This document shows positions 15,255 to 35,898 of a stretch of 64,000 nt of DNA, in pieces. The notes under the pieces are model-generated. The model ran no database searches. It was not told where the DNA came from and saw nothing but the letters and a program-made list of their open reading frames with translations. This DNA comes from Gammaproteobacteria bacterium (lineage in GTDB: Bacteria > Pseudomonadota > Gammaproteobacteria > Nevskiales > Nevskiaceae), in the NCBI GenBank assembly GCA_026398815.1, contig JAPLSA010000024.1:1-64000 (forward strand). Reading direction: 5' to 3'. The position numbers and the translations under genes are program-made. Numbering within the stretch: the first letter of the stretch is position 1; each line of letters starts with the position of its first letter.

Positions 15255-16862
15255 TCAGTACTCGAAACGCTCGCCGGGCAGCGGCGGCGTGGTGGCCGGC
15301 GCCACCCGATGCCGGGTCGCCTGCTCGTAGCTGTAGGCGTAGGCGAGCAGCTTCGGCTCGCTCCAGGCCGGGCCGAAGAACGAGATCGTCACCGGCATCT
15401 TGTCGCGGGTAACGCCGGCCGGAACGATCACATCCGGGAACTGCGTGACATTGGCGATGCTGGTCAGCGACGGCGTCGGCGGCCGGTCGACGATGTAGGG
15501 CGTCAGCGGGTCGATGATTTCCGGCTGCCGCGAACGGGTCGGATAGACCAGCACGTCGACCTTCTTCTCCTCCATCAGGCCGAGCACCGCACCGCGCACC
15601 GCCGGCATCGCGTACTGCTTGGCCGAGGTGTAGCTCAGCGCGGTCAGCGGCGGCCGTTCGCCCAGCGCCTTGAAGCGCGTGTAGACGCTGGGATGCGGCT
15701 GGAACTCGCCCTGCGGCGCGGTCAGCTTGATGCCCTTCTCGGCCAGTTCGGTGACGGTCTTCGGAAAGCCCGGCCGCAAGGTGGCCAGATAGTCGACGTA
15801 GTTGTCCTTCACCTCGGCGCGCATCGGCTCCATGACCACGGCGCGGTTCTGCATGACGATCGCCGGGTAGTGGACGTCCTCGACCAGCACCGCGCCGAGC
15901 TTTTCCAGCTCGGCGAGGCTTTCGTCGAACACCCGGTCGACTTCCGGATCGGTGCCCGCCAGATCGCGGATCACGCCAACCCGCACGCCCTTCAGCGCGT
16001 CCTTCTTCAGGAACGTCGTGTAGTCCTTGTAGCCGAGCCCGGCGCTGCCGCTGGTCAGCGGGTCCTTCGGATCGACGCCGGTCATGAAGCCCAGCGTCAC
16101 CGCCGCGTCGTAGACCGTGCGCGCCATCGGCCCGCCGGTATCGAAGCTCAGCACGCAGGGCATGATGCCGGTGCGCGAAATCAGGCCATTGGTCGGCTTG
16201 ATGCCCACCACGCCGTTGGCCGACGACGGGCCGCGGATCGAGCCGCCGGTATCGGAACCCAGGCCCACCGGCGCGAACCAGGCGGCCAGGCCGGCCCCGG
16301 TGCCGCCGCTGGAGCCGGCCGGATGGCGACGCGGATCATGCGGATTGCGGGTCTGGCCGAGGCGCGAGCTGTAGCCGATGCCGCCGTGCGCGAACTCATC
16401 CATGTTGACCTTGGCGAGGATGATCGCGCCGGCCTCGCGCAGCTGCTTGATGCTCGGCGCGTCCTGATACGGCACCGACTTGGCCAGCAGGAACACGCCG
16501 CCGCTGGTCGGCATGTCGGCGGTGTCGTAGTTGTCCTTCGCCAGCACCGGAATGCCGTGCAGCGGCGAGCGCCGGCCCTTCTTCTTGTACTCGGCGTCGA
16601 GCGCCTTCGCGGTCTCGATGGCCTTGGCATTCAGGGTGATCACCGTGTTCAGCGACGGCCCCTTCTTGTCGTAGGCGGCGATCCGCGCCAGGTACAGGCG
16701 GGTCAGCTTTTCATAGCTCAGCGCGCCGGCATCGACGGCGGCCTGGATGTCTTCGATGCCGGCGTTCTGCAACTCAAAAGTCTTGGCCTCGGCGACACCC
16801 GACAGGCCGAAGGCGAGCGCGATGCCGCAGAGCAGCGCGCGGTGCGCGGGAATGGGATTCAT
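15255..16862 (-). CDS. Exported amidase-signature hydrolase, 535 aa (tandem copy 4)
   Basis: A periplasmic serine amidohydrolase. The signal peptide MNPIPAHRALLCGIALAFGL ends near VAEA (residue 26). The Ser-cisSer-Lys triad is complete: Lys109 (VLAKDNYD), cis-Ser184 (AGSSGGTGAG) and Ser208 (GSDTGGSIRGP). The layout and length match exported peptide amidases of the Stenotrophomonas Pam type, which remove C-terminal amides from peptides, but the closest substrate cannot be fixed from sequence. It is the last of four tandem paralogues on this strand and lies 15 bases after the next copy, so it is probably cotranscribed with it. Confidence 0.92.
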   Translation of the reverse strand: MNPIPAHRALLCGIALAFGLSGVAEAKTFELQNAGIEDIQAAVDAGALSYEKLTRLYLARIAAYDKKGPSLNTVITLNAKAIETAKALDAEYKKKGRRSPLHGIPVLAKDNYDTADMPTSGGVFLLAKSVPYQDAPSIKQLREAGAIILAKVNMDEFAHGGIGYSSRLGQTRNPHDPRRHPAGSSGGTGAGLAAWFAPVGLGSDTGGSIRGPSSANGVVGIKPTNGLISRTGIMPCVLSFDTGGPMARTVYDAAVTLGFMTGVDPKDPLTSGSAGLGYKDYTTFLKKDALKGVRVGVIRDLAGTDPEVDRVFDESLAELEKLGAVLVEDVHYPAIVMQNRAVVMEPMRAEVKDNYVDYLATLRPGFPKTVTELAEKGIKLTAPQGEFQPHPSVYTRFKALGERPPLTALSYTSAKQYAMPAVRGAVLGLMEEKKVDVLVYPTRSRQPEIIDPLTPYIVDRPPTPSLTSIANVTQFPDVIVPAGVTRDKMPVTISFFGPAWSEPKLLAYAYSYEQATRHRVAPATTPPLPGERFEY

Positions 16863-16877
16863 GGCAGGGCTTCCGGA

Positions 16878-18521
16878 TCAGTAGGTCAGGACATCACCGG
16901 GCAGCGCCGGCGTGTGCTTCGGTTCCACCAGCGCGTGGGTGGCCTGCTCGAAGTCGTAGCCGTAGCCGAGCAGCTTCGGCTCGCTCCAGGCCGGGCCGAA
17001 GAACGAGATCGCCACCGGCAGACCTTCCGGCGTCATGCCGGCCGGCACGATCAGATCCGGATAGCCGGTCTCGTTGGCGAAGCTGGTGGCGCTGTCGGTG
17101 CCGGCGCTGGGCTGCGGCGGCTTGTCCGGCACGATCAGCGTCGCCGGCTTCGGCGAGGTCGGATAGACGATGGCGTCGACCTTGTACTTGCTGAAGACCG
17201 CATCGATGCCCGACTTCACCGCCGCCAGCTGCTCGTTCTTCACCGCGAGATAGGCCGGATCGTCGAGCGTCTGGGCGATCGACGCCGTGTACTTCAGCGC
17301 GTAGGCCTTGCCGGGTGACTGGAACTTGGTCTTCGGATCGTTGGACAGCGCCACCACCTCGTCGAAGCTCTTCGGATAGCCGGCCTTGGTGGTCTTCAGG
17401 TACTGGGTGACCTGGGCCTTGAACTCGGTCGACACCAGCTGGTTGTAGATCGGCTGCTTGGCGGCGATCAGGTAGTCCGGGTACTTGACGTCGACCACCG
17501 TCGCGCCCAGCGCCTTGAGCTTGGCGACGGCGGCAGTCATCACCGCATCGGTGCCTGCATCCTTGCCGGTGAAGTCGCGGGCAAAACCAATCCGCGCGCC
17601 CTTCAGCGAGCCGGTCTTCAGGAACTTCGTGTAGTCGGGCTCGATGTGGCCGGCGCTCTTGGCGGTGGCCGGATCGGCGGGATCGACGCCGGTCATCACG
17701 GTCAGCGAGGCAGCGATGTCGTAGACGCTGCGCGCCATCGGGCCGCCGGTGTCAAAGGACAGCGCCAGCGGCACGATGCCGTCGCGGCTCATCAGGCCGT
17801 GGGTCGGCTTCAGGCCGACGATGCCGTTGGCGGTCGACGGGCCGCGCACCGAGCCGCCGGTATCGGAACCCAGGCCGAACTGGCCGAACACCGCCGCGAT
17901 CGCCGCACCGGTGCCGCCGCTGGAACCGGCCGGGCCGCGCGTCAGGTCATGCGGGTTGCGGGTCTGGCCGCCCATCGAGCTGCTGCCGTTGGGCACCGCA
18001 CCGGCCTTCAGCACCGCCGGATCGGTGGCGCCGCTGACGCTGCCGCCGCTGCCGGCCCATTCGGAAAGATTGACCTTGGCGACGATGATCGCGCCGGCGT
18101 CCCGGAGCTTCTTGACCACGTAGGCATCGTCCGGCGGGATCGAGCCCTTCAGCAGCTGCGAGCCGGCCGTGGTCGGCAAGTCGAAGGTGTCGAAATTGTC
18201 CTTCAGCACGATCGGCACGCCGTGCAGCGGGCCGCGAACCTTGCCGGCCTTGCGCTCGGCGTCGAGCGCCTTGGCGACGTCGAGCGCCTTCGGGTTCAGG
18301 GTGATCACGCTGTTGATCACCGGGCCTTTCTGGTCATAGGCCTCGATGCGCGCCAGATACGCCTGGGTGACCTGCACGGCGCTGAGCTTGCCGCTGCCAT
18401 AGGCGGCCTGCAGGTCGGCGATGGTGGCGGTGGCGAGATTCAGGCTGGCGGCCTGGACGGGGTTGGTGAGGCTGCCGATCGCGAAGGCGAACGCGAGGGC
18501 GGACTGCTTGAGCGGCGTCAT
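16878..18521 (-). CDS. Exported amidase-signature hydrolase, 547 aa (tandem copy 3)
   Basis: The signal peptide covers about the first 25 residues (FAFAIGSLTNPVQAA). Triad: Lys107 (IVLKDNFD), cis-Ser200 (AGSSGGTGA), Ser224 (GSDTGGSVRGP). Compared with copy 4 it has an extra 15-20-residue loop around SGATDPAVLKAGAVPNGSSS, which it shares closely with copy 1 at 20185-21834; these two are the most alike of the set. Role: hydrolysis of an amide bond in the periplasm, substrate unknown. Spacing is 15 bases to the downstream copy and 43 bases from the upstream copy, consistent with one operon. Confidence 0.92.
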   Translation of the reverse strand: MTPLKQSALAFAFAIGSLTNPVQAASLNLATATIADLQAAYGSGKLSAVQVTQAYLARIEAYDQKGPVINSVITLNPKALDVAKALDAERKAGKVRGPLHGVPIVLKDNFDTFDLPTTAGSQLLKGSIPPDDAYVVKKLRDAGAIIVAKVNLSEWAGSGGSVSGATDPAVLKAGAVPNGSSSMGGQTRNPHDLTRGPAGSSGGTGAAIAAVFGQFGLGSDTGGSVRGPSTANGIVGLKPTHGLMSRDGIVPLALSFDTGGPMARSVYDIAASLTVMTGVDPADPATAKSAGHIEPDYTKFLKTGSLKGARIGFARDFTGKDAGTDAVMTAAVAKLKALGATVVDVKYPDYLIAAKQPIYNQLVSTEFKAQVTQYLKTTKAGYPKSFDEVVALSNDPKTKFQSPGKAYALKYTASIAQTLDDPAYLAVKNEQLAAVKSGIDAVFSKYKVDAIVYPTSPKPATLIVPDKPPQPSAGTDSATSFANETGYPDLIVPAGMTPEGLPVAISFFGPAWSEPKLLGYGYDFEQATHALVEPKHTPALPGDVLTY

Positions 18522-18564: not shown

Positions 18565-20169
18565 TCAGGGCAGCAGCGTTTCGCCGGCCAGTGGCGGCGT
18601 CGCGGCGGGTGCCCGGCGGTGATGGGTGGCGGCCTCGTAGCCGCTGGCGAGCTTGATCAGCGTCGGCTCGGTGAACGGCTTGCCGAGGAACTGCACGGCG
18701 AACGGCATGCCGTCGGACGGGAAGAAGCCGCCCGGCACGACGATGGTCGGCAGGCCGGTGTACGAGGCGATGGCGTTGCGGTTCTCGCTGCGCGCGCCCG
18801 GTGCGGCCGGCGGGTTCGGCGTGGCCTTGAAGTCGTCGGCGAGCGCGGTGCGGTACGGCAGGATCAGGCCGTCGAGCTGGTACTTGTCGATCAGTCCGGT
18901 CAGCGCCTCGCGCATCACCGTCTGGTGCTTCATCGCGGCCAGCAGTTCCGGGCTGTGGTCGATCGACCCGTACTGGTAGGACTCGACGATGCGCGGCTTC
19001 ACCAGCGCCCCGCCCTTGGCGATCATCTCGGCGACGCTGCGGATCGGCGCGCTGGCCGGCAGCCGGGCCAGATAGGCGTCGATCGCGGTGGCGACCTCGT
19101 AGCGCGGCGCATCGGCCAGCGTCTGGCTGTCGGCCAGCCCGAGGCCGGTGTCGACCGGATCGACGATCACCGCGCCGGCCGCCTTGAAGTCGGCGATCGC
19201 CCGCTCGAACAGCGCCCTGCCTTCCTCGTGCACCGGGCCGCTGCGCACCATCTCGCGCAGCACGCCGAGGCGTGCGCCCTTCAGGCCGGTCTTCGACACG
19301 AAGCTGGCGTACGGCCGCTCGGGCAGCTTGCCGATGCCGGCCTGGGTGGCGAGATCGGCGGCGTCGTAGCCGGCGATGACATCGAGCACGGCGGCGCAGT
19401 CGGCGACGCTGCGGCACATCGGCCCGCCGCTTTCCTGCGATGGACTGCTCCACATCATGCCGGTGCGGCTGACGAGGCCGTGGGTCGCCGAGATGCCGAC
19501 CAGGTTGGCCAGCGTGCTGGGGATGACGATCGAGCCGGTGGTGTCGCTGCCGAGGCCGACGGTGCCGAACCAGGCGGCGATCGCCGAGCCGGTGCCGCTG
19601 CTCGAACCACCGGTCGATTTCTTCGCGTTGTACGGGCTCAGCACCGGCCCTTTCAGCGAGCTGCCACCGGGCGCAGCGACGCCGTACCAGTCCGACTGGT
19701 TGAGCTTGGCGAGGATCACCACGCCGGCCTTGCGCAGGCGGTCGATGACGAAGGCGTCGCGATCCGGCTGCGAGGTGGCCATCGGCTTGAAGCCGCCGGA
19801 GGTCGGCAGATCCTTGGTGTCGAAGACATCCTTGGCCAGCAGCACGATGCCGTGCAGCGGCGAGCGCAGGCCCTTTTCGCGGCGCTCCTTGTCGAGCGCC
19901 TTCGCTTCCTCGAGCGCGCGCTTGTTCAGGGTGATGACGCTGTTCAGCGCCGGCCCCTTGGCGTCATAGGCCTCGATGCGGGCGAGATGAAGCCGGACCA
20001 GCTGCTCGGAACTCAGGCTGCCGCCGGTCATCAGCGCCTGCAGCTCGGCGATGCTGGCGGTGGCCAGGTCGAGCGCGGCCTGTGCCGGACTGGCGAAGGC
20101 CAGCGCTGCGGCGACCGCCAGCGCAGCCAGCGGGCGGCGCGGCAGACAGATCATCGGAATGCGGGTCAT
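18565..20169 (-). CDS. Exported amidase-signature hydrolase, 534 aa (tandem copy 2)
   Basis: Signal peptide of about 31 residues (ALAVAAALAFASPAQA). Triad: Lys113 (VLLAKDVFD), cis-Ser189 (GGSSSGTGS), Ser213 (GSDTTGSIVIP). The nucleophile block differs from its neighbours: TTGSIV instead of TGGSIR/VR, so the Arg after the nucleophile is absent. This is closer to the TDGSIV form of the Stenotrophomonas peptide amidase. It is thus the most divergent of the four tandem copies and may have its own substrate. It lies 15 bases downstream of copy 1. Confidence 0.92.
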   Translation of the reverse strand: MTRIPMICLPRRPLAALAVAAALAFASPAQAALDLATASIAELQALMTGGSLSSEQLVRLHLARIEAYDAKGPALNSVITLNKRALEEAKALDKERREKGLRSPLHGIVLLAKDVFDTKDLPTSGGFKPMATSQPDRDAFVIDRLRKAGVVILAKLNQSDWYGVAAPGGSSLKGPVLSPYNAKKSTGGSSSGTGSAIAAWFGTVGLGSDTTGSIVIPSTLANLVGISATHGLVSRTGMMWSSPSQESGGPMCRSVADCAAVLDVIAGYDAADLATQAGIGKLPERPYASFVSKTGLKGARLGVLREMVRSGPVHEEGRALFERAIADFKAAGAVIVDPVDTGLGLADSQTLADAPRYEVATAIDAYLARLPASAPIRSVAEMIAKGGALVKPRIVESYQYGSIDHSPELLAAMKHQTVMREALTGLIDKYQLDGLILPYRTALADDFKATPNPPAAPGARSENRNAIASYTGLPTIVVPGGFFPSDGMPFAVQFLGKPFTEPTLIKLASGYEAATHHRRAPAATPPLAGETLLP

Positions 20170-20184: not shown

Positions 20185-21834
20185 TCAGTTGCGCATCGCC
20201 AGGCTGTCGCCCGGCAATGGTGGCGTGGTCTTCGGCAGCACCCGGGCCTTGGTGGCCTGCTCGAAGTCGTAGCCGTAGCCGAGCAGCTTCGGTTCGCTCC
20301 AGGCCGGGCCGAAGAACGAGATCGTCACCGGCAGGCCGTTCGGGGTGATGCCGGCCGGCACGATCAGATCCGGATAGCCGGTCTCGTTGGCGAAGCTGGT
20401 TGCCGACAGGCCGCCGGCCGACGGTTCGCCGATCAGGGTCGCCGGCTTCGGCGAGGTCGGATAGACGATGGCGTCGAGCTTGTCGGCCGCGAACAGCGCA
20501 TCGATGCCGGCCTTGATCGCCGGCAGGCCCTGGTTCCTGGCAGCGAGGTAGCGCGGGTCATCGAGCGACAGCGCCTGCGTCGCCGTGTACTTCAGCGCAT
20601 AGGCCTTTTGCGGCGCGCGGTAGCCGGTCTTCGGATCGTTGGACAGCGCCACCACCTGCTCGAAGGTCTTCGGATAGGCCGGGCCAGTGGTCTTCAGATA
20701 GTCGGTGACCTGGGCCTTGAATTCCGACGACATCATCAGCGTCAGCAGCGGCTGCTTGGCGGCCAGCAGGTAGTCCGGATACTTGATGTCGACGACCGTC
20801 GCGCCCTTCAGCCGCAGCATCTCGATGGCGCGCGCCATCACCAGATCAGTGCCGGCGTCCTTGCCCATGAAGTCCCGCGCGATGCCGATCCGCGCGCCCT
20901 TGAGCGCGCCGCGCTTCAGGTACTTCAGGTAGTCCTGCTCGGCGTGGCCGGCGCTCTTCGCGGTGGCCGGATCGGCCGGATCGACGCCGGTCATCACGCC
21001 CAGCGCCAGCGCCAGATCCTCGACGCTGCGGGCCATCGGCCCGCCAGTGTCGAAGGAGAGCGCCAGCGGGATGATGCCGTCGCGGCTCATCAGGCCGAGC
21101 GTCGGCTTCAGGCCGACGATGCCGTTGGCCGACGACGGCCCGCGCACCGAGCCGCCGGTGTCGGTGCCGAGGCCGAACTGCGCGAAGGCAGCCGCGATTG
21201 CCGCGCCGGTGCCGCCGCTGGAGCCGGACGGGCCGCGCGCCAGATCGTGCGGATTGCGGGTCTGGCCGCCCATCGAGCTGCTGCCGTTCGGCACCGTGCC
21301 GGCCTTGATCACCTCCGGATCGGTGGCGCCGCTGACGCTGCCGCCGCCACCGGCCCATTCCGACAGATTGACCTTGGCCAGCACGATGGCGCCGGCCGCG
21401 CGCAGCTTCTTGACGACAAAGGCATCGTCCGGCGGGATCGAGCCCTTCAGCAGCTGGCTGCCGCCGGTGGTGGGCAGGTCGAAGGTGTCGAAGTTGTCCT
21501 TCAGCACGATCGGAATGCCGTGCAGCGGGCCGCGCAGCTTGCCGGCCTTGCGCTCGGCATCCAGCGTCCGCGCCAGCTCCAGCGCCTTCGGGTTGAGCGT
21601 GATCACGGTGTTCAGCACCGGACCTTTCTGGTCGTAGGCCTCGATGCGGGCGAGATAGAGGCCGGCGAGCTTTTCGGCGCTGAGCGCGCCGGATGCCATG
21701 GCCGCCTGCAGGTCGGCGATGGTCGCCGACTCCAGTTCCAGCGCCGCCGCCGGTGCGGCTGTCCATCCGGCTGCCAGGGCAGCGCAGGTCGCCAAGGCCA
21801 GCGACAGGGGTTTGAGCTTGGATGCGGCTTTCAT
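20185..21834 (-). CDS. Exported amidase-signature hydrolase, 549 aa (tandem copy 1)
   Basis: The ATG at 21834 has GGAG eight bases upstream and starts a signal peptide (MKAASKLKPLSLALATCAAL, ending near APAAA); the longer frame to 21918 adds a Pro/Gly-rich stretch without export character. Triad: Lys112, cis-Ser205 (SGSSGGTGA), Ser229 (GTDTGGSVRGP). It shares the loop SGATDP...GTVPNGSSSMGG with copy 3. It is the first gene of the amidase group, 160 bases downstream of the TPR gene of the TonB module. A hairpin at 21948-21975 in that gap suggests a separate transcript. Confidence 0.92.
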   Translation of the reverse strand: MKAASKLKPLSLALATCAALAAGWTAAPAAALELESATIADLQAAMASGALSAEKLAGLYLARIEAYDQKGPVLNTVITLNPKALELARTLDAERKAGKLRGPLHGIPIVLKDNFDTFDLPTTGGSQLLKGSIPPDDAFVVKKLRAAGAIVLAKVNLSEWAGGGGSVSGATDPEVIKAGTVPNGSSSMGGQTRNPHDLARGPSGSSGGTGAAIAAAFAQFGLGTDTGGSVRGPSSANGIVGLKPTLGLMSRDGIIPLALSFDTGGPMARSVEDLALALGVMTGVDPADPATAKSAGHAEQDYLKYLKRGALKGARIGIARDFMGKDAGTDLVMARAIEMLRLKGATVVDIKYPDYLLAAKQPLLTLMMSSEFKAQVTDYLKTTGPAYPKTFEQVVALSNDPKTGYRAPQKAYALKYTATQALSLDDPRYLAARNQGLPAIKAGIDALFAADKLDAIVYPTSPKPATLIGEPSAGGLSATSFANETGYPDLIVPAGITPNGLPVTISFFGPAWSEPKLLGYGYDFEQATKARVLPKTTPPLPGDSLAMRN

Positions 21835-21947
21835 CGCGACGGCTCCAGTGAGGCTTGCAGCGGCGGGTGGCCCGGGCACAGCCGGGCCCTGCGGCACGCC
21901 ATGGGGCGCGCCGGTCAAGGGGATTCAAGCGGGGTGGCCGGCCGGGC

Positions 21948-21994: not shown

Positions 21995-23422
21995 TCAGTC
22001 GGCGCGACTGGCCACGGTGGCCGCCGCCGCGTCGCGCGCTGCCGAGGCATCCGGCGCCGCGCCCGGCGCTGGCTGGGTCGACAGCGAACGCAGCCATTCG
22101 CTGGCCTGCGCCCGGGTGTCGTCATAGGCGACCGATTTCTGCAGCGCGGCGATCGCGCCCTTCAGGTCGTTGGCGCCGTAGTGGGCAACGGCGATGCGGA
22201 ACCAGGCTTCGCCGGGCTTCTTCAGGCCGCCTTTTTCCAGCGCCCGTTCCAGCATTTCGCGGGAATCCTTCCAGCGCTCCTGATCGCCGTACATCGCGCC
22301 GAGGCGGAAGTAGTACTCGCCGCGCTCGGCCATCGCCGCCAGCTGCTTCAGCGTGGCTTCGGCCTTGGCGGTCTCGCGGGCGTTGATCCAGGCGTTCGAC
22401 ACCGATTCCAGGTTCTTCTCGTCGAGCGGCAGCTTGTTGTCGGCGATCGCCTGATCCATCAGCTGCGCGGCCTTCTGCGGCTCGCCGATGATCATGTAGG
22501 TGTTGTACAGGTTGCGGATGTCGTCGGCGCTGGCCAGCATCCCCTGCCGCTCGGCCAGCGCCAGCACCGCCGCCGCCTGGGTGCTGTCTTCCATCTGCAG
22601 CAGCACGCCGGCCAGCTGCTTCCAGTAGTCGGCCTTGCCGGTGTTGACGGCGATCAGCTGCAACAGCGTTTCCGCCGAACCCTTGTAGTCCTTGGCCTCG
22701 TAAAGCAGACCGAGCTTGAACTGCACCCAGGACTCCTTGACGACCTTGCTGGCAGCCAGCGCGATGTCGACTTCGGCCAGGGCTTCCGGGTAGCGCTTGC
22801 GCTCGGCCAGCGCGCTGGCCAGGAACACATGGGCATCCGGCGACACCGGATTGCAGGCCTTGGCCATGTAGTCGCGCAGCGCTTCGATGCCGGCATCGAA
22901 CTGGCCGCTGGCGACATACAGCTGGCCGAGGTTGAAGCGCAGCTGCTCGCTCTGCTGCAGCGACAGCGCGTTGTACGACAGCGCCTTGGCGAAGTACGAC
23001 GCCGACGCGGCGAGGTCGTTCTTCTCGGAGTAGCCGATGCCGAGGTTGTAGTGGACCACGGCCTTGTCGTAGTCCTCGCCCTTGGTCACCAGCTTCTTGA
23101 GCTTGTCGATCGCCAGATCGGTCTTCTTCTCGCCGAGCAGCACCGAGGCTTCCCGCATGTCCTCGACGAGATCCTCGCTGAGGTTGGCGGTTGCCTTCTG
23201 CTTCGACGGCAGGCATTCGGCGCGCACGCCGGCCGCGATCATCGCCGCTTCCTTGGCGGCGGCGATCTGGGCCGGTGTCTGCCGGACCGGTTGAGGATTC
23301 GGGCTCTGTGCCAGGGCCGGGCCGCTGGTGGCCAGACCGACGGCGGCAAGGGCCGCCAGCCGGTGCCAGCCCCGAACCCGAGCGGAAACGGCGACAGCAG
23401 TGGCTGGATGCTGGTAGCTCAT
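21995..23422 (-). CDS. Exported TPR protein of the TonB2-type module, 475 aa
   Basis: Signal peptide ending near SGPALAQ, then roughly ten tetratricopeptide-like helical pairs (KAVVHYNLGIGYSEKNDL, HVFLASALAERKRYPEAL, YYFRLGAMYGDQERW). In Vibrio the tonB2-exbB2-exbD2-ttpC locus also ends with a TPR gene of this kind, thought to assist the TonB2 complex in the periplasm. The ATG at 23422 has GGAG eight bases upstream, and another in-frame ATG at 23428 overlaps the tonB stop; either start keeps the genes coupled. A low-complexity Ala/Ser tail ends the protein. Confidence 0.88.
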   Translation of the reverse strand: MSYQHPATAVAVSARVRGWHRLAALAAVGLATSGPALAQSPNPQPVRQTPAQIAAAKEAAMIAAGVRAECLPSKQKATANLSEDLVEDMREASVLLGEKKTDLAIDKLKKLVTKGEDYDKAVVHYNLGIGYSEKNDLAASASYFAKALSYNALSLQQSEQLRFNLGQLYVASGQFDAGIEALRDYMAKACNPVSPDAHVFLASALAERKRYPEALAEVDIALAASKVVKESWVQFKLGLLYEAKDYKGSAETLLQLIAVNTGKADYWKQLAGVLLQMEDSTQAAAVLALAERQGMLASADDIRNLYNTYMIIGEPQKAAQLMDQAIADNKLPLDEKNLESVSNAWINARETAKAEATLKQLAAMAERGEYYFRLGAMYGDQERWKDSREMLERALEKGGLKKPGEAWFRIAVAHYGANDLKGAIAALQKSVAYDDTRAQASEWLRSLSTQPAPGAAPDASAARDAAAATVASRAD

Positions 23423-23427
23423 GGTCA

Positions 23428-24114
23428 TCACTCCGCGGCGCTCAGGTTGAACTCGATGCGCTGCACGCCGTGGAACTCGACGGCCTTGCCGTCGACGGTC
23501 TTCGGCTTGAAGCGCCATTTCTGCACGGCGGTCACGGCGGCCGCCTCGAACAGGCCCTTCGGCTTGGCCTCGACGACTCTCGCCTTGCGGACGCTGCCGT
23601 CCGGGTTGACGGTGACGTCGATCAGCACATAGCCATTGATGCCGCCGCGCCGCGCATCTGCCGGATAGGTCGGCGGAATGCGCTGCAACGGCACCAGATC
23701 GCTGTCCATCGCGCCGGCCAGGCTGCCGGTGCCACCGCCGGTGCCAGCGGACATGCTGCTCGGCAGGCCGAGGTTGGTCGGAATGCCGATGCCGGCGGAT
23801 GGCGCCGCGACATCGACATCGATCTTCATCTTCGACGGCGGCGCTGGCGATTTCGCCGGCGGCGGCGGTGGCGGCTTGCGCCGCTCGGTCTGCTCCGGCG
23901 CGCTGTCGCGCTTCAGGCGCACGAAGTCGATGGTCGGCAGGTTCTCCACCTTGTTGACGCCGTGACCACTGACGTGGATCACCGCGTACATCAGCCAGAA
24001 GAACATCAGCGAGGTGAGGATCGACATGCATAGTGCCGTCGTCCACCGGGTGCCGAAGCTGGCCTTCGGCAGGTTCAGCTCGAACTCGGTCGCAGTCGTG
24101 GTTGCGGGTGCCAT
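23428..24114 (-). CDS. tonB: TonB-family energy transducer, 228 aa
   Basis: Links the inner-membrane ExbB/ExbD motor to outer-membrane receptors. One membrane segment (residues about 25-47, TTALCMSILTSLMFFWLMYA), a periplasmic proline-rich spacer (RRKPPPPPPAKSPAPPSK), a Gly-rich linker, and a C-terminal TonB domain with RIPPTYPADARRGG, GYVLIDVTVNPDGS and AVQKWRFKPKTV. The short spacer and lack of long EP/KP repeats resemble TonB2 rather than enteric TonB. It lies 11 bases after the second exbD and overlaps the start of the TPR gene. Confidence 0.92.
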   Translation of the reverse strand: MAPATTTATEFELNLPKASFGTRWTTALCMSILTSLMFFWLMYAVIHVSGHGVNKVENLPTIDFVRLKRDSAPEQTERRKPPPPPPAKSPAPPSKMKIDVDVAAPSAGIGIPTNLGLPSSMSAGTGGGTGSLAGAMDSDLVPLQRIPPTYPADARRGGINGYVLIDVTVNPDGSVRKARVVEAKPKGLFEAAAVTAVQKWRFKPKTVDGKAVEFHGVQRIEFNLSAAE

Positions 24115-24125: not shown

Positions 24126-24533
24126 TCAGGCCGGGGGAGCGGCGGCAATGGAGACATCGCCGATGCCGCCGAGCTTCACCTGGTCCATCACCTTGGTCAG
24201 CACGCCGGTCTGCGATTCCTTGTCGGCGATGATCACCACGGTGTCGTCCGGGCGCTCGATGTGGAGGCGTTCGATGGCACCGCGAATCTCGCCGATGCCC
24301 ATGCGGCGCTTGTCCATCCAGATGTCGCCGTTGGGGCGGATGGCGATCAGGATGTTGCCGCTGTCCTTGTGTTCGGCGGTCAGCGCCTGCGGGCGCGTGA
24401 CCTGGATGCCGGACTCCTTCACGAAGGACGTGGTGATGATGAAAAAGATCAGCAGGTTGAGCACGAAGTCGAGCATCGGCGCGAGATCGATGCCGGTCTC
24501 CTCGGATTCTTCGGCGTGGCGTCTGGACATCAT
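24126..24533 (-). CDS. exbD: ExbD-family protein, second copy, 135 aa
   Basis: Inner-membrane proton-channel partner of ExbB. A short cytoplasmic N-terminus leads into one membrane helix with the essential Asp (IDLAPMLDFVLNLLIFFIIT), then a periplasmic domain with VVIIADKESQTGVLTKVMDQ. It is clearly paralogous to the exbD just upstream but has its own periplasmic sequence (NGDIWMDKRRM). Two exbD genes in a row suggest a heteromeric ExbD pair in one motor. There is 48 bases between the two. Confidence 0.92.
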   Translation of the reverse strand: MMSRRHAEESEETGIDLAPMLDFVLNLLIFFIITTSFVKESGIQVTRPQALTAEHKDSGNILIAIRPNGDIWMDKRRMGIGEIRGAIERLHIERPDDTVVIIADKESQTGVLTKVMDQVKLGGIGDVSIAAAPPA

Positions 24534-27819: not shown

Positions 27820-30693
27820 TCAGTAGTCGAGCTTGGCCTGGAGCTGTACCGCCGTCCCCGGCATCACCGAGACCAGGTTGACGTTGGTATCGCCGGTACC
27901 GGCACGGAAGTAGCGCTGATCCAGCACGTTGAAGCCGCTGAGCTTCAGGTGCAGCCGGTTGCGGTCGAAAGTGATGCCGGTGTTCATCGTGAACGACTGC
28001 GGCAGCTTCACCAGCTTGGTGCGATCGAGATAGAACGACGAGAAGCGCTGGCCGTCGATATGGAAGGCGAAGCCGTAGCCGAGCTTGTAGTCCATGTTGA
28101 CGCCGGTCTGGTAACGCGGCTCACCGACCCGGTCCAGATACAGGGCACCGATTTCCGCCGGCATCACCAGCTGCACGCGACCGCCGTACAGGAAGGCTTC
28201 AGCCGGATACAGCACCGAGCCGTCAGCGTTGAGGATGTCCTGGAAGCCGAGCTGGCGGCCGTTCAGCTGCAGCTGCGAGTTGGTGTTGAACACGTACTTC
28301 TGGTGCTGGCCGACGAAATACATGCCGATGTGGAACTTGCGCGTCGGATTGCCATCGATCTGCAGTTCCAGGCCGCGGGTCTTGGTCGCCGAGGAATCGG
28401 CGCCAGCGGTCGGATCGGAGGGATTGGAGACGTCGCTGCGCAGCTGCCGGTACATCGCCGCCGAGGCGAACAGCTTGCCGCCAAACCAGTTGCCCTTGAT
28501 GCCGCCTTCCGACAGCTTGGAGCGACCGATGTGACCGCCCGGCGCGGTGACGATGGCGTTGGAGACGATGTTGTTGGAGGCATCGAGGATCACCGACGCG
28601 TCAGCGATGGTGAAGTACGGACGGAAGCCGTACGGCAGCTGCTGCGACAGGCTGATGCTCCAGGTCTTGCCGTCGTCCCAGGCCGGGCCGTAATCGCAGC
28701 GGCCGGAGGTCAGCACCAGCAGCTGCTGCTCCGATGCGGCGATCTGCGCGGAGGTAGGTGCAGCCAGCGCATTGCCCGGCAGGTTGCAGGAGTTGCCGAG
28801 CGACGGCTTCTGCTGGTTGTTGTGGGCGTACTCGATGTCGCGCGCCGTGGAGCCGTCCCAACGACCGCCGAAGGTCAGGCTGGTGTTCTTGAACAGGGTG
28901 ACGTCGAACATCAGGCCGGCGCCGAACTCGTCGTAGACGCTGCGCCGCTCGCCTTCCGCCGGTGCGCCGGTCAGCCACGACGGATCGTTGAGCTGGTTGG
29001 CGAACTTGGTGTTCGGATAGTGCTGGCCATCGCCGTACTGCGGATCGCCGCGCAGCACGTCCTGGCGATAGTCGTAGTCGCCATTGGAGTTGCGGATGTA
29101 GCCGGCGGTGCGCCGGTAGCTGATCGAGGTCAGCGTGTTGACGTCGACCCAGCTCGGCATCCACTTCTCCGGCAGACGCTTGGTGACCGTGAACTTTTCC
29201 TCGAAGCGGTGGATGCCCTGCTTCTCGCCGTAAGGCAGGTAGGAATCCTTGAAGGTGTCAAGGTTGTCGGTGAAGGTCTGGATCTTCATCGTGAAGTTCG
29301 GATCGGTGTCGTACACCAGATCGAACCAGGCGAGCCCGACATTGGCGTTCTGCAGGCGCTCGTAGGAGCCGTTGCGGCGATAGTCGACGTTGGCGAAGCC
29401 GGTGGTGGTCGGATCGAGGAAGAAGCCGACCGGCAGCGTGCCGGACACCGGCGTCACGCCTGCGCCCAGCGAGCGTGCGGCACGCACCTGCCCGGTCGGG
29501 TCCTTGTTCGGATTGGCTTCCAGATAGGTATAGAGCGAATCCGGAATGCCGGGCGCCGCCGGGAAATGACCGGGCAGGCAGAAGCCGCCAGGGCCGGCGA
29601 ACTGGGCGTTTTCGCCGGTGCACTTCGGCCAGGCGAAGCGCTGGTCGAGCGGCCGGTTGGCGGCCGACACGGTGCCGGTCACCGGCGAGTTCGCGTGCAG
29701 TTCGCGCTGGCCGATGAAGCCATCGCCGAGGCCGTCGAGATTGGCGCCGGCACCGGCGTCGAGATTCACCAGCGGGCTGCCGCGCACGTACTGGCCGTTG
29801 TCGAGCAGGCTCTGGGTGACGCGGTTCATGTAGCCGCCGGAGGTCTGCGAGTTCTGCGCCTGGAAGCCGCTTTCGACGCGGAACATGCCGATGTTGTTCA
29901 GGCTCAGCGCCGACTGCAGCAGGCGCTGCCGCACATTGACCTGGCGCACCCAGGAGCCGGAGTTCTCCACCAGGCCGTAGGTGTAGAAGCCGCCCTGCTT
30001 GCCGGCGACATCGACCGGACCACCGACGCCGGTGGTCGCTTCCAGCTTGTCCCAGGAGCCGACCACGCCCTGGACGAAGCCGGCGAGATCGGTGAGGTAG
30101 GAACCGGTCTGCGCCTTGCCGCCGGAACGCGGCTGCTGGTTGACATAGCCACCGATGCGGCCAAGGCCGAAGATCGGCGGTGCCGCGCCCTTGACGATTT
30201 CCATCGACGACAGCGACGACAGATCGGTGCGGTAATGGCCCTGCGCGGTGATGCGCTTCATGCCGCGCCAGTAGACGTCGGCCGGAATGCCGCGCACGTT
30301 GATGCCGCCCTGCAGGCCGTAGCGCGTGGTCGTGTAGGTGCCGGGCACGGCGCGGACGATGTCCTCGATCGCGTTGATGCCGAGCAGGTTCAGCGTGTCC
30401 TCGTTGATCAGCGACACCGCGCGCGGCGTTTCCAGCAGTGGCTTGGCGAAGCCGGCACCGCCGACCGCCTCACTGGCGATCGACGGAATGGCGCTGGCGT
30501 TGACCACCATGTCGCTGAGCACCGAGGCCTCGCCGGGCGGTGCGGCTTCCTGCGTCACCGGTGCTTCCGGTGGCGTGGTGGACTGGGCGTAGGCCATGCC
30601 GGCCGGGACCAGGATGGCAAGAGCGGCGGTCAGGTCCTTCGTGGCGGCACGAAGGGTGTGGCCGGATTTCCGTAGCTTTCTGCGGCTGCGCAT
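27820..30693 (-). CDS. TonB-dependent outer-membrane receptor without signalling domain, 957 aa
   Basis: The ATG at 30693 has GGGGA about five bases upstream and yields a signal peptide (AALAILVPAGMAYAQ). A plug domain starts near KPLLETPRAVSLINEDTLN and carries IRGIPADVYWRGMKR-like and IEIVKGAAPPIFGLGRIGGY-like motifs; a 22-strand barrel follows, ending in the aromatic/hydrophobic strand AVQLQAKLDY. Siderophore-receptor-like by the ETPRAVS plug signature. It lacks the STN signalling domain found in its paralogue at 30817-33822, so it probably imports without signalling. The ligand is unknown. It lies 123 bases after that paralogue and just before the TonB module. Confidence 0.92.
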   Translation of the reverse strand: MRSRRKLRKSGHTLRAATKDLTAALAILVPAGMAYAQSTTPPEAPVTQEAAPPGEASVLSDMVVNASAIPSIASEAVGGAGFAKPLLETPRAVSLINEDTLNLLGINAIEDIVRAVPGTYTTTRYGLQGGINVRGIPADVYWRGMKRITAQGHYRTDLSSLSSMEIVKGAAPPIFGLGRIGGYVNQQPRSGGKAQTGSYLTDLAGFVQGVVGSWDKLEATTGVGGPVDVAGKQGGFYTYGLVENSGSWVRQVNVRQRLLQSALSLNNIGMFRVESGFQAQNSQTSGGYMNRVTQSLLDNGQYVRGSPLVNLDAGAGANLDGLGDGFIGQRELHANSPVTGTVSAANRPLDQRFAWPKCTGENAQFAGPGGFCLPGHFPAAPGIPDSLYTYLEANPNKDPTGQVRAARSLGAGVTPVSGTLPVGFFLDPTTTGFANVDYRRNGSYERLQNANVGLAWFDLVYDTDPNFTMKIQTFTDNLDTFKDSYLPYGEKQGIHRFEEKFTVTKRLPEKWMPSWVDVNTLTSISYRRTAGYIRNSNGDYDYRQDVLRGDPQYGDGQHYPNTKFANQLNDPSWLTGAPAEGERRSVYDEFGAGLMFDVTLFKNTSLTFGGRWDGSTARDIEYAHNNQQKPSLGNSCNLPGNALAAPTSAQIAASEQQLLVLTSGRCDYGPAWDDGKTWSISLSQQLPYGFRPYFTIADASVILDASNNIVSNAIVTAPGGHIGRSKLSEGGIKGNWFGGKLFASAAMYRQLRSDVSNPSDPTAGADSSATKTRGLELQIDGNPTRKFHIGMYFVGQHQKYVFNTNSQLQLNGRQLGFQDILNADGSVLYPAEAFLYGGRVQLVMPAEIGALYLDRVGEPRYQTGVNMDYKLGYGFAFHIDGQRFSSFYLDRTKLVKLPQSFTMNTGITFDRNRLHLKLSGFNVLDQRYFRAGTGDTNVNLVSVMPGTAVQLQAKLDY

Positions 30694-30816
30694 GGCGTTC
30701 CCCGTGGATGTCTGGCGGGCGCCGCACACGTGTGGTTCGTGTGTGGCGTCCCTGCTCATCTGACGGGAACGCGGCGGGCCACCCTACCCCGCATGTGCTC
30801 GGATGGCGGCGCGAAA

Positions 30817-33800
30817 CTACAGCTCGCGGCGAACGGTGAACTGGAATCGTCGGCCTGGCAGCGCCGACACCGGCACGTCGGCCAGGGTGTCGCCATTGCG
30901 GGCGCGGAAGTAGCGTTGATGGGTGAGATTGAAGACGTCGGCCTTCAGTCTCCACTTGCGCCATTCGGCAAACAGCCCGGCATTGAAGACGCGCGCTTCC
31001 GGCAGCTCGGTCAGTTGCAGGCGGCCGGCCGAAACACTGGACAGGTAGTTGCCGCTCAGCGTGATGCCGAGCCCTGGCCGCAGCAGCAGCTGGCTGGTGA
31101 AGCCCAGCTGGGTGTTCGGATTGCCCTGCTTCTCGCGATAGGCATCGAGCCCCGGCGGCAGCGCCACGAACGCGCGGCCGCCGTACAGAAAGGCCTCGGC
31201 CGGATAGATGACCTCGCCGGTCGCCGGGTCGACGACATCCTGGAAGCCGAGCGCCCGCGCATCGACCTGGATGTTGCCGCCGCGGTTCGGCGTGTAATAG
31301 GTCTTCTGGTTCAGCGCGTACAGCGTCATCAGGAAGTTGCGCGTCGGCACCCACTTCAGCTCGCTTTCCCAGCCGCGCGTGCGGGTGCCGGCGACCTCGG
31401 TATTGGCAAGGCTGGGATCGCCGACGCTGTTGACGCTGACGCGGCGCTGCTCGTACGCGGCCGAGCTGATGAACAGCCGGTCGTCGAACAGGCTGGTCTT
31501 GACGCCGAACTCGATGAACCGCGAAGCGCCGATGTGGCCCAGCTCGATTTGGGTATTGCTGACGCGGTTGATGTTGTTGTCGAGCATCAGGCTCGATCGC
31601 GCATAGGTGGCGTACGGCACCACCGGCCCCGGCAGGTGCTGCGACAGGCTGATGCTCCACGAGGTGCCGTCGTCCCAGCCCTTGGCCGTCATGTCGCGGC
31701 TGGCGAAGACACCGGGATTGGCCGAGGTGCCGGCCGTGGTGTTGAGCGTGCCGGCGTACTCCACATTGCGCGCAGTGGAGCCATCGATGCGGTAGCCGGC
31801 CAGCAGATGGGTGTCGCTGGCGAAGTCGATGTCGAACAAGACCGCCGCGCCCGTTTCGGAGATCTTCGACTTGCCGTGCACGGTGTACGGCAGGCCGTCG
31901 TCCTGCAGGTCGGCATTGGCGGTGCAGACCGAGAACGTCGTGTTCGGCGTCATGCCGGCGTTGTTGTTGCGCCAGTCGGAGGCCGTGGCATCGCTGCGAT
32001 TGTTGCTGTAGTCGCCAAAGCACTGGGAAATCGGCGCATAGGTGCTGCGGTAGTTCAGCGAGCCCAGCACGTTGATGCCGAGCCAGGACGGCAGCGCCTT
32101 CAGGCGGCGGGTAACGGTCAGCTTGTCTTCCCAGATGCGCGGATTCTGGTCGGTGCCAAACGGCTGTTCGGACTCCTTGAACTGGTTCATCGAATCGAAG
32201 AACAGCTGGTTCTTGATTGTGAAGTCGGGATCGGCGTCGTCGATGAGATCGACATAAGCAGTGGCCAGATCGGCTTCCAGGCGCCGCTCGTAGGCTGCGA
32301 AGCGGCGGATGTCCAGCTTGCCGTAGCCGGTGGTGCGCGGATCGAGCGCCATGCCGATCGGCACCGAGCCGGAGATCGGCCTCGGCCCGCCCACGCCTTG
32401 CGCGCGCAGCAGGCCGCCGGGATCGGCTTCCGGATGGGCGACCAGATAGTCATACAGCGTCTGCGGAATGCCGGAGACCCTGGCGAACTGGTCCAGCCGC
32501 AGCGGCTGGCTGTTGCCGTCGTACTGCCACGGGAAGATCTGCACCAGCGGCTGGTTGGCGACGCTGACCGCGCCGGCGACCGGCGAGCCGCGATGCATTT
32601 CCAGAAAGCCGATGTGGCCATTGCCGTTGGCATCGAGATTCACCAGCGGCGAGCCCTGCACGTAGCGGCCGCTGTCGGCCACCGCCTGCGTGAAGCGGCC
32701 GATCAGCGCGCCGGCCGTCATCGAGCGCTGCAGCGCCAGACCGGATTCGACGCGGAAGCGGCCGGCGACGCGATCGAGGCTCGACGACAGCTGCAGCAGC
32801 TGGGCATCGTTCGGCACGCCGCGCGCATAGGCGTTGGCGGTCGACAGCGCGCCGTAGACCGAATAGCCGCCGGCGCGCTGGCCGATCTTGAACGGGCCGT
32901 CGATGCCGAAGCTGACTTCGCGCAGATCGTAGCTGCCGGCCACCAGCTGCACGAAGCCCTGATCGTCGGTGACCAGCCGGCCATCGCTGGCACGCGCCGT
33001 GCGCGGCACCACGTTGGTGTAGCCACCGACCTTGCCCATACCGTAGATCGGCGATGGCGGGCCGCGCACCACCTCGATGGAGTCATTCGCCGACAGCACG
33101 CTGTTGACGTGGCCCTGCAGGTAGACGCGCTTCATGCCGCGAAAAAAGGTGTCGGCCGGCACCGAGCGGACGTCGATGCCGCCCTGGATGCCGAAGCGCG
33201 ACGGCGTGAATGCGCCCGGCACCACGCGCACCAGATCCTCGACCGAGGCGAGGCCGAACAGCTCGATGGTTTCCTTGCTGATGAACGACACCGAGCGCGG
33301 CGTCTCCAGCAGCGGCTTGTCGAAGCCGAACGCCGAGCGGCTGGCCTCCTGCGGCAGCGTCCGGCGCACGTCGCGGACATGCACGGTGCCGAGCTGTACG
33401 GTCTGCACGCGGCGGCTGCCATCGTCGTCGCTGCCGGCAGCCGTGGCGGCATCGGCGGCAGCGGCCGTCAGGATCACCACGGTCTGCGGGTTGGCGAACA
33501 GCATCCGCAGGCCGCTGCCGGCCAGCAGCCGGCCCAGCGCCTCGGCGGCGCTGTAGCGGCCACTCAGCGCGGCGCTGTCATGGCCGTCGGTGATGCCGTC
33601 GGGGTAGACCACCTGCAGGCCGCTCTGCTCGCCGAAGCGGTCCAGCGCCTCGGCCAGCGAAGTCGCACCGATGTCGTAGGTGCGCGTCTCCGCCCGCGCC
33701 GATGCGATCGGCGCGATGTCGTCCACCGCCAGCGTGGTGCCCGAACAGACCAGCAGCGATGCGGTCAGCGACGCGCGAAACACCAAACGCCAGTCCTCCC

Positions 33801-33822
33801 GTCGACCCGTCCTGCTGCACAT
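30817..33822 (-). CDS. FecA-type TonB-dependent receptor with N-terminal signalling (STN) domain, 1001 aa
   Basis: Signal peptide, then an STN domain at about residues 45-115 (TSLAEALDRFGEQSGLQVVY, GRYSAAEALGRLLAGSGLRM) that would touch FecR in the periplasm when ligand binds. The plug begins near FDKPLLETPRSVSFISKETI and has SIEVVRGPPSPIYGMGKVGG; the barrel ends in ALPGRRFQFTVRREL. It is paralogous to the next receptor over plug and barrel. Together with the fecR and sigma genes upstream it makes a classical cell-surface-signalling trio. Ligand unknown; iron chelates are the usual case. Confidence 0.93.
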   Translation of the reverse strand: MCSRTGRREDWRLVFRASLTASLLVCSGTTLAVDDIAPIASARAETRTYDIGATSLAEALDRFGEQSGLQVVYPDGITDGHDSAALSGRYSAAEALGRLLAGSGLRMLFANPQTVVILTAAAADAATAAGSDDDGSRRVQTVQLGTVHVRDVRRTLPQEASRSAFGFDKPLLETPRSVSFISKETIELFGLASVEDLVRVVPGAFTPSRFGIQGGIDVRSVPADTFFRGMKRVYLQGHVNSVLSANDSIEVVRGPPSPIYGMGKVGGYTNVVPRTARASDGRLVTDDQGFVQLVAGSYDLREVSFGIDGPFKIGQRAGGYSVYGALSTANAYARGVPNDAQLLQLSSSLDRVAGRFRVESGLALQRSMTAGALIGRFTQAVADSGRYVQGSPLVNLDANGNGHIGFLEMHRGSPVAGAVSVANQPLVQIFPWQYDGNSQPLRLDQFARVSGIPQTLYDYLVAHPEADPGGLLRAQGVGGPRPISGSVPIGMALDPRTTGYGKLDIRRFAAYERRLEADLATAYVDLIDDADPDFTIKNQLFFDSMNQFKESEQPFGTDQNPRIWEDKLTVTRRLKALPSWLGINVLGSLNYRSTYAPISQCFGDYSNNRSDATASDWRNNNAGMTPNTTFSVCTANADLQDDGLPYTVHGKSKISETGAAVLFDIDFASDTHLLAGYRIDGSTARNVEYAGTLNTTAGTSANPGVFASRDMTAKGWDDGTSWSISLSQHLPGPVVPYATYARSSLMLDNNINRVSNTQIELGHIGASRFIEFGVKTSLFDDRLFISSAAYEQRRVSVNSVGDPSLANTEVAGTRTRGWESELKWVPTRNFLMTLYALNQKTYYTPNRGGNIQVDARALGFQDVVDPATGEVIYPAEAFLYGGRAFVALPPGLDAYREKQGNPNTQLGFTSQLLLRPGLGITLSGNYLSSVSAGRLQLTELPEARVFNAGLFAEWRKWRLKADVFNLTHQRYFRARNGDTLADVPVSALPGRRFQFTVRREL

Positions 33823-34098
33823 GCGCTACGCCCGGTGTCCGAATCCTTCGTCGATCAACTCTGGACGGATGCGCGTCGCCTTACCCTGTACCGACTTGCA
33901 CGCGGGATCAGCGTTGCGCCATCCCTGGATTCGCGCCGGTCAGGCGCGATGTCACGCCCGCCGCCACGGCGCCGCTGCCGGCAGGCAGCCGCAGCGGTGG
34001 CGCGTGGTGACGATGCAACGACGTGGCGGGGTGAACAAACGCACACTTCATGCCATGCGTGGCATGGCGGCCGGGCTTGCGTTGCGCAGCGCGGCGGA

Positions 34099-35097
34099 TC
34101 AGTCGGGACGGCGGCTCAGCACGATCTCGCGGCCTTGTTCTTCGGCGCTGATCGGCAAGGTCTGCACCAGCGCGGACGCCACCAGATGGCTGTCGCCCGC
34201 GATGAAGTTGCCGCTGACCGGCAGGCCGGCCAGCAGCGGATCGTCGATGCGCAGCGGCTGATCGACATAACGGTTCACTTCGGCCAGCACTTCGGCCAGC
34301 GGCGCACCGTGGAACACCAGCCGCCCGCGTTCCCAGCCAGTGGCGGCCTGAAGGTCGACGCTGCGCTTGGTCCAGGCCTGCGGGCTGCTGCCGTAGCGCA
34401 GTTCCTCGCCCGGCTGCAGCTGCTCGGTCCGCCCTTCGAGATCGCCGGTGCCGGTTACCGACACCGCGCCTTCGGCCAGCGTCACCGCCACGGCATCGCC
34501 GCGCAGATCGACCTGGAAGCGGGTGCCGAGCGCCACCGTGCGGCCTTCGCCCGCCGCGACCGAGAACGGCCGGCTGCTGTCATGCGCCACCTGGAACAGC
34601 GCGCGCCCGCGCAGCAGCGCGACGCGACGCGCATCGCTGCGCAGTTCGACTTCGATGGCGCTGCCGACGTCGAGCTCGACCTTCGAACCATCGGCCAGCA
34701 CCAGGCTCTGCCGCCCGTCGACGGTATTCGCGCTTTCGTACGTCGCCGTGTCGTCGGTACCGTGGCGGCCGACCAGCAGCGTGGTCAGGAACACGCCGGC
34801 AGCGGCCACGCCGGCGGCCAGCGCCACCGCCTTCCAGCGCGGCCGGCCGGCGCGCGAGGCGGCGCTGTCGAGCAGAGCGGCATCGGCCATCGCCAGCAGA
34901 TCGGCATGATCGCCTGCCAGCTGCGACAGGCCGTCCTCGACCCGTGCTGCCAGCGTCCAGGCCTCGGCGTGCGCGGGGCTGCGGGCACGCCACAACTCCG
35001 CCGCGCGACGTTCCTCGGCCGTGCAGGCGGGGGACGCCAAACGCGCTGCCCACTGGGCGGCTTCGTCGCGCAACTGCGTGGAGGTCGGGCTGTTCAT
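34099..35097 (-). CDS. FecR-family anti-sigma/signal transducer, 332 aa
   Basis: Inner-membrane regulator that holds and activates the ECF sigma factor. An N-terminal cytoplasmic domain (residues 8-60, with DEAAQWAARLASPACTAEER) is the sigma-binding DUF4880 region; one membrane helix spans about 89-109; the periplasmic FecR domain has RQSLVLADGSKVELDVGSA and VALLRGRALFQVAHD; the C-terminal segment (PLAEVLAEVNRYVDQPLRID) is STN-like. The ATG at 35097 is chosen because the extra N-terminal residues upstream do not belong to the family. It lies between the sigma gene and the receptor, 277 bases before the latter. Confidence 0.9.
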   Translation of the reverse strand: MNSPTSTQLRDEAAQWAARLASPACTAEERRAAELWRARSPAHAEAWTLAARVEDGLSQLAGDHADLLAMADAALLDSAASRAGRPRWKAVALAAGVAAAGVFLTTLLVGRHGTDDTATYESANTVDGRQSLVLADGSKVELDVGSAIEVELRSDARRVALLRGRALFQVAHDSSRPFSVAAGEGRTVALGTRFQVDLRGDAVAVTLAEGAVSVTGTGDLEGRTEQLQPGEELRYGSSPQAWTKRSVDLQAATGWERGRLVFHGAPLAEVLAEVNRYVDQPLRIDDPLLAGLPVSGNFIAGDSHLVASALVQTLPISAEEQGREIVLSRRPD

Positions 35098-35310
35098 CTT
35101 CCAATTCTGCCATCGCCTGCGGACAACGGCGATGCAGGCCAGCATTACGCGCGCCGTCCATGGCGCATTCCCGGCAAGGCACGGGGCCTGGCGCAGGGCC
35201 TGTAGCCACAGGCCGACGAGGCGTGGCGGTGATGCAGGCAGGCTGCATCGGCCGCCGCGATGACTGCCGGGGCGGGAAACCGGGCCGCCGGCATCAACAG
35301 CGCGTTCGGG

Positions 35311-35898
35311 CTACTTCCTGAAAGACGGGTGACGGTCGTTGTCACCTACCTTTTTCATGCACACCGCCAGCGCGTGGCTGATGTGCTTCTCCACCATCTT
35401 GACGCTAATGCCGCAGTGCCGGGCGATTTCCGGATAGGTCATGTGCTTGACGCGGCTCAGCAGGAACACCTGCTGGCACTTCTGCGGCAGCTGGCGGATC
35501 GCCGACAGCAAGGTGGCCAGATCCTCGGCGCCGGCGATGTGCTGCTCGGCCGAGGGCTCGCGCGAGGCCAGCTCGTGGTCGTCGATGTTGCACTGGTCCT
35601 GAACCCGCCGGGACTGATCGGCGCGCGCGAAGTCGTTGGCGACATTGGTCGCGATCCGGAACAGCAGCGACGACGGCGAATGGATGTTGCGGGCGCCCTC
35701 GTACTGCATCATCCGCACATAGGCTTCCTGCGCCACGTCGTGGGCATCTTCCGGCGTCCGCATGCGGCGACGCAGGAAATTCAGCAGGGCGCCGTGGTTT
35801 TCGCGGATCACCGTGTCGACCGACAGCGGTGGACGCGTCGCCTCAAGTTCTTCCGGCGCAAACGCCGTCGACGACGCCAGCAGCGTAAAAGTACCCAT
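35311..35898 (-). CDS. FecI-like ECF RNA polymerase sigma factor, 195 aa
   Basis: Region 2 (residues about 33-65, ALLNFLRRRMRTPEDAHDVA and AYVRMMQYE) binds core polymerase and the -10 element; region 4 (about 136-182, LPQKCQQVFLLSRVKHMTYP and EIARHCGISVKMVEKHISHA) is the helix-turn-helix for the -35 element. The pattern is that of iron-starvation FecI-type sigma factors. It should be released by FecR and drive the receptor genes. The gap of 213 bases to fecR is large for this type of pair and may hold a second promoter. Confidence 0.92.
   Translation of the reverse strand: MGTFTLLASSTAFAPEELEATRPPLSVDTVIRENHGALLNFLRRRMRTPEDAHDVAQEAYVRMMQYEGARNIHSPSSLLFRIATNVANDFARADQSRRVQDQCNIDDHELASREPSAEQHIAGAEDLATLLSAIRQLPQKCQQVFLLSRVKHMTYPEIARHCGISVKMVEKHISHALAVCMKKVGDNDRHPSFRK

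Follow-up and report, generated by a model that had tools for sequence, protein, structure and literature searches.

What is a FecI/FecR-type signaling system doing at the head of a gene run that continues through two TonB-dependent receptors and a private TonB motor into a series of predicted exported amidases? The window analyzed here, the whole stretch of 64,000 nucleotides, comes from a water bacterium of the Nevskiaceae with a 4.3 Mb genome in 32 contigs; among named bacteria, Nevskia, Solimonas and Hydrocarboniphaga are near relatives. An earlier note on this DNA had proposed that the locus may sense, import and hydrolyze an amide-bearing ligand such as a peptide amide, siderophore or natural product. 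The analysis presented below indicates that this is probably an amide-utilization locus, combining sensed, TonB-driven import of an amide-rich compound with its hydrolysis in the periplasm. Pfam and NCBIfam scans confirmed the identity of every gene named in that note, all of them on the minus strand, and yielded the following features.

35311..35898, minus strand: ECF sigma factor, FecI-like (Pfam Sigma70_r2/r4_2; NCBIfam FecI-type matches below the equivalog cut-offs)
34099..35145, minus strand: FecR-type anti-sigma regulator, DUF4880 and FecR (Pfam)
34031..34054, minus strand: 24-bp block GGCATGAAGTGTGCGTTTGTTCAC, 5' of receptor 1; candidate sigma-dependent promoter or operator
30817..33822, minus strand: TonB-dependent receptor 1, STN and Plug (Pfam); EF-hand-like loop at residues 397-408
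27820..30759, minus strand: TonB-dependent receptor 2, Plug, without STN (Pfam); homolog of receptor 1
26944..27717, minus strand: DUF3450 protein (Pfam), TtpB-like; putative TtpB equivalent by size and position
25544..26944, minus strand: long MotA_ExbB protein, TtpC-like (Pfam)
25027..25551, minus strand: ExbB (Pfam)
24582..24995, minus strand: first ExbD (Pfam)
24126..24533, minus strand: second ExbD (Pfam)
23428..24114, minus strand: TonB (PF03544)
21995..23428, minus strand: TPR protein, TtpD-like, with signal peptide (Pfam)
20185..21918, minus strand: amidase A4, PF01425, with signal peptide and Ser-cisSer-Lys triad; true start probably 21834
18565..20169, minus strand: amidase A3, PF01425, with signal peptide (Pfam)
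16878..18521, minus strand: amidase A2, PF01425, with signal peptide, 76% identical to A4 (Pfam)
15255..16862, minus strand: amidase A1, PF01425, with signal peptide (Pfam)
14118..15218, minus strand: acetamidase/formamidase-family protein, FmdA_AmdA (PF03069); the family recurs in the islands described below
13158..13988, minus strand: shikimate-dehydrogenase-like protein; same gene in the G002 and G013 loci
12474..13088, minus strand: YitT-family membrane protein; same gene in the G002 and G013 loci
11528..12457, minus strand: class D (OXA-type) beta-lactamase gene; membership of the unit uncertain, not seen in other loci
8502..10835, plus strand: large amidase sharing 28-33% identity with A1-A4 and belonging to a different class; members of that class also sit beside the receptor in loci L152 and L167

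From the start of receptor 1 (33822) to the end of amidase A1 (15255), intergenic gaps range from -8 to 102 bp, while gaps of 165 bp and 276 bp separate the sigma gene from FecR and FecR from receptor 1, respectively. The locus had been taken to end at A1; its listed genes stand, but the unit runs on into the FmdA_AmdA gene, located 36 bp beyond A1 and followed by the shikimate-dehydrogenase-like, YitT-like and OXA-type genes. Likewise, the count of four co-directional amidases was correct but overlooked the fifth, larger amidase on the plus strand. The first part of the 720-aa ORF 21995-24157 is a frame artefact; the TPR protein begins at about 23428, and TonB occupies 23428-24114. The OXA-type gene scores 243 bits against a cut-off of 250 and lies 16 bp past the YitT-like gene.

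The ECF sigma factor, FecR-type regulator and STN-bearing receptor are adjacent in the window, as in FecI/FecR/FecA signaling. The block GGCAYGAAGTGTGCGTNNGNTCAC, between FecR and receptor 1, is conserved in four Nevskia genomes. A search of the window's genome tolerating as many as three mismatches returned one copy, and a reversed control gave no match. This conserved 24-bp block may be the sigma promoter, and together with the co-directional, tight spacing of the genes it lends indirect support to sigma control of the operon amidases. The amidase clusters outside the window operon lack the block, and control by the sigma factor may therefore be confined to this operon, leaving most amidases of the genome perhaps outside its regulon. 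The block was not recognized outside Nevskia, and motif discovery on receptor intergenic regions gave a moderate gain over shuffles that was convincing only for the Nevskia block. Motifs derived from all receptor upstream regions were dropped, as the search was misled by FecR coding sequence; in Cellvibrio-type loci there is little space between FecR and receptor. Using a single 19-bp consensus for Fur-like boxes, the regions before the sigma gene and the receptor matched at 9 and 8 of 19 positions, against mostly 8-11 in random windows, and no clear match was found at the other loci.

Receptors 1 and 2 are homologous to each other and to a set of receptors spanning two phyla, most of which carry a conserved EF-hand-type loop approximating DxNGxGxIGxxE. 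Two residues of this loop, the first Asp (D397) and a Gly (G402), do not vary in any of 38 receptor sequences. The AlphaFold2 model of receptor 1 (mean pLDDT 83, pTM 0.76) places this loop and the short helix that follows it inside a confidently modeled loop some 130 residues long, which runs between strands ending at 374 and starting at 509 and by its topology would be extracellular. The EF-hand-type loop may bind calcium, and BtuB provides a precedent for calcium in receptor loops. A literature search on the EF-hand motif, covering titles and abstracts, returned lanthanide papers, none of which was recognized at that level as matching this receptor family. FhuA, FoxA and FpvA ranked first in a structure search with receptor 1, but they share with it only the general TonB-dependent receptor fold, and hence the comparison names no ligand.

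These observations bear on the best-surviving alternative, siderophore or metallophore piracy, according to which a foreign amide- or hydroxamate-containing chelate would be imported and its ligand broken by the amidases in the periplasm, freeing the metal. The FecI/FecR/STN architecture is classical for iron, Vibrio TonB2 systems serve iron uptake and the nearest receptor folds are those of the siderophore receptors FhuA, FoxA and FpvA, although this fold is common to most TonB-dependent receptors. However, no Fur-like match (one consensus) stands out above background before the sigma gene or the receptor, genes for an iron reductase, an ABC importer or a periplasmic iron-binding protein were not recognized, and one siderophore hardly explains the number of amidases. 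The partner genes encode asparaginases and acetamidases rather than iron functions. The siderophore option of the earlier note is thereby weakened, and we consider piracy unlikely.

In the amide-utilization reading, the receptors would be energized by the linked motor. Vibrio TonB2 has a six-gene TtpB-TtpC-ExbB-ExbD-TonB-TtpD layout, with a first gene of about 255 aa and a TPR protein last, and Vibrio TonB3 also opens with a receptor gene (PMC6957404). The window's motor matches the order TtpB, TtpC, ExbB, ExbD, TonB and TPR protein TtpD, with a second ExbD added. In many genomes the locus includes a TtpC module. In Solimonas soli and S. flava, by contrast, the amidases directly follow the receptor and no motor genes are found there, showing that TonB2/TtpC is not an obligatory neighbor. 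Elsewhere in the window's genome, another DUF3450-TtpC-ExbB-ExbD-TPR module (G000:C23:111943-119608, L104) has no amidases alongside.

The window amidases present both a PF01425 profile match and the Ser-cisSer-Lys triad. Every one of 186 aligned amidase rows, among which is the Pam control, keeps the catalytic Lys and the nucleophile Ser; at the cis-Ser position, 183 rows have Ser and 3 have Thr. The cis-Ser column was identified by its spacing to the nucleophile, and the triad was scored on the alignment, a regular-expression search being too narrow. Retention of these residues led us to discard a reading of the amidases as inactive relics. A signal-peptide-like N-terminus, assessed with a simple hydrophobicity test, is present in 169 of 185 amidases (~91%), which are thus predicted to be exported; island asparaginases and FmdA proteins also begin with signal-peptide-like stretches. 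Clustering at 58% identity produced 21 classes plus singletons, with classes 0 (twice), 5, 6 and 8 represented in the window. The closest solved structure to A4 is that of the peptide amidase Pam (PDB 1m21/1m22), and A1-A4 score 338-488 bits against NCBIfam amidase NF006006 (PRK08137), under its curated cut-off of 534 bits. The paralogs could serve many unrelated small amides instead of one imported compound. The window's genome has 23 PF01425 match rows, a few of which are pieces of one gene, including the window cluster and a cluster on contig 18. The latter (G000:C18:81938-99007; L101, L102) is accompanied by RND pump genes and adjoined by genes that we take to be aromatic-ring dioxygenase-like.

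Within the order Nevskiales, receptor homologs (E < 1e-100) were detected in 13 of 85 genomes and 4 of 21 genera, with a patchy distribution within genera. Using A4 as the query, these 13 genomes hold from 5 to at least 13 amidase matches, compared to a median of 2 (range 0 to 11) for the 72 remaining genomes (one-sided p ~2e-9, a value that ignores shared ancestry). Similarly, type II asparaginases encoded as a tandem pair occur in 12 of the 13 receptor-positive genomes and in 1 of the 72 receptor-negative ones (p ~1e-12, again ignoring shared ancestry). The trend reappears when Nevskia (p 0.002) or one other genus (p 0.003) is considered alone, indicating that the association of receptor and amidases does not reflect lineage alone. 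The receptor-negative genome with 11 amidases (G005) is also the sole receptor-negative carrier of the asparaginase pair; its assembly is fragmented, and one contig reads TPR-amidase-amidase-amidase. FmdA-family genes occur in nearly all receptor-positive genomes, but elsewhere too.

In seven related genomes (G002, G038, G052, G047, G024, G053 and G031), the receptors are surrounded by islands of up to ~80 kb that contain a varying mix of amidases, asparaginases, FmdA, AcrB/HlyD (RND) pump genes, a His-rich membrane protein and a JmjC protein; the island pieces examined contain 134 clustered amidases. The His-rich integral membrane protein (L109:10956-12686, L103:8160-9890, L149:17991-19721) adjoins the asparaginase pair in most islands. 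Sequence searches of Pfam, NCBIfam and PDB gave no match for this protein, and its invariant His/Asp pattern suggests a metal enzyme. The JmjC/cupin protein is encoded in L119 (16663-17853) and four other islands, sometimes beside RND pump genes. In G002, a PF00144 gene lies near the place matching the window's OXA-type gene.

The make-up of the islands could instead point to detoxification, with amidases, beta-lactamases and the RND pump protecting the cell from amide-type antibiotics or peptides of cyanobacteria that come in via the receptors. The islands do contain an RND pump and outer-membrane factor, RND genes are also near receptors in the Verrucomicrobiota loci L156, L162 and L163, and the OXA-type gene of the window and the PF00144 gene of G002 would fit. 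Yet a ligand-sensing pair of uptake receptors with a private motor would hardly be kept for a poison, and conservation across loci does not extend to the beta-lactamase genes, making this explanation improbable and slightly less credible than piracy.

The adjacency of amidases and receptors in related genomes, on which the earlier note had staked its reading, extends well beyond the order. The receptor alignment was scanned against 84,980 species genomes, without using the amidases in the search, and returned 34 loci, including Steroidobacter, Cellvibrio and other Cellvibrionaceae, unclassified Gammaproteobacteria and Opitutae/Verrucomicrobia. In 19 of the 22 loci outside Nevskiales an amidase lies at most 5.2 kb from the receptor, mostly within 300 bp, with identities reaching 80%, and adjacency is kept in Solimonas, Hydrocarboniphaga, Nevskia, Steroidobacter, Cellvibrionaceae and Opitutae (Verrucomicrobiota). 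This recurrence across genera and in two phyla argues that the arrangement is not due to chance, and gives strong support to the sense-import-hydrolyze proposal insofar as it posits one conserved gene set. For one amidase class, the Opitutae members share 77-79% identity with those of Solimonas or Hydrocarboniphaga, a closeness that suggests transfer from one phylum to the other. Among the loci seen, sigma and FecR genes lie beside the receptor only in Gammaproteobacteria, and several Opitutae/Verrucomicrobia loci have TtpC/ExbB/ExbD/TonB genes near the receptor. The Opitutae receptor loci L162 and L163 have other genes instead of amidases. In L162 and L153, a molybdopterin oxidoreductase gene adjoins the receptor operon; this Tat-type protein (L153:2305-4767, L162:7044-9383), presumably IorB-like, occurs in loci with few or no amidases.

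Least credible is a loose genomic hot spot where amidases were tandem-duplicated beside a receptor operon without any functional tie and scavenge small, porin-passing amides, as the tandem related copies (A2 and A4 are 76% identical) and the many further amidases elsewhere in the genome might suggest, but receptor-amidase adjacency persists with conserved amidase classes across families and two phyla, and co-occurs with the asparaginase pair.

The amide-utilization reading suggests the following course of events. The STN domain of receptor 1, signaling via FecR to the ECF sigma factor, would report an extracellular amide-rich compound and switch on the operon, and both receptors, energized by the linked TonB2-type motor, would carry the compound into the periplasm. 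There, exported amidases from several classes, aided by type II asparaginases and by acetamidase/formamidase-like enzymes whose genes lie in the window locus or in sister clusters, would cut its amide bonds step by step, releasing ammonia and acids, and the RND pump of the same islands would clear toxic substrate or product. The ligand could be an oligomer or peptide-like. No dedicated inner-membrane importer was recognized, which counts against this reading. It is quite possible, though we stop short of calling it probable, that these are horizontally spread TonB-dependent amide-utilization loci of Gammaproteobacteria and Verrucomicrobiota, whose receptors with calcium-type loops import an unrecognized amide-linked natural oligomer for degradation by a periplasmic amidase battery.

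Each of the component families is already known. The locus resembles FecI/FecR/FecA in the order of its ECF sigma factor, FecR with DUF4880 and STN-bearing receptor, but no Fur box was found (one consensus), and a second receptor, TonB2 motor and amide hydrolases lie downstream in place of the iron-citrate ABC importer of Fec. With Vibrio TonB2/TonB3 it shares gene order, a first gene of ~255 aa, a TPR protein last and, in the case of TonB3, an opening receptor, differing in its two ExbD genes and the amidases that follow. A4 has the same Ser-cisSer-Lys triad as Pam, to which the amidases are likened by homology only, but the window locus holds 4-5 paralogs and the islands ~21 classes. A TonB-dependent receptor with its own regulator and exported hydrolase battery also recalls SusC/SusD-type polysaccharide-utilization loci, except that here amidases replace glycoside hydrolases, SusD is lacking and regulation is by cell-surface signaling; neither a SusD-type surface lipoprotein nor carbohydrate-active enzymes were detected among the Pfam-scanned operon genes. 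What appears to be new is the conserved association of receptor and amidases, with asparaginase, FmdA and pump genes, for which no describing paper was found in the open-access literature searched. The recurrence of the same receptor-plus-amidase kit in two phyla makes it look like a real, apparently undescribed nutrient-use system. Glycan utilization loci are known; a conserved, sensed and TonB-driven amide counterpart, if true, would point to an unrecognized pool of organic nitrogen, and such loci would supply many predicted exported amidases for specificity studies. The receptor-amidase link makes the system testable in cultured strains: Solimonas soli, S. flava, S. aquatica, Hydrocarboniphaga effusa and H. 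daqingensis.

Two further observations concern the flanks of the locus. An RHS-repeat protein of 1528 aa (3192-7778, minus strand), just outside the island, has a third-position GC below that of its neighbors. On the other side, a tRNA-Thr gene (38049-38124, plus strand) overlaps the first ATG of a PQQ-dehydrogenase/cytochrome ORF (38086-40473, plus strand), and the true start of the latter is therefore probably further downstream.
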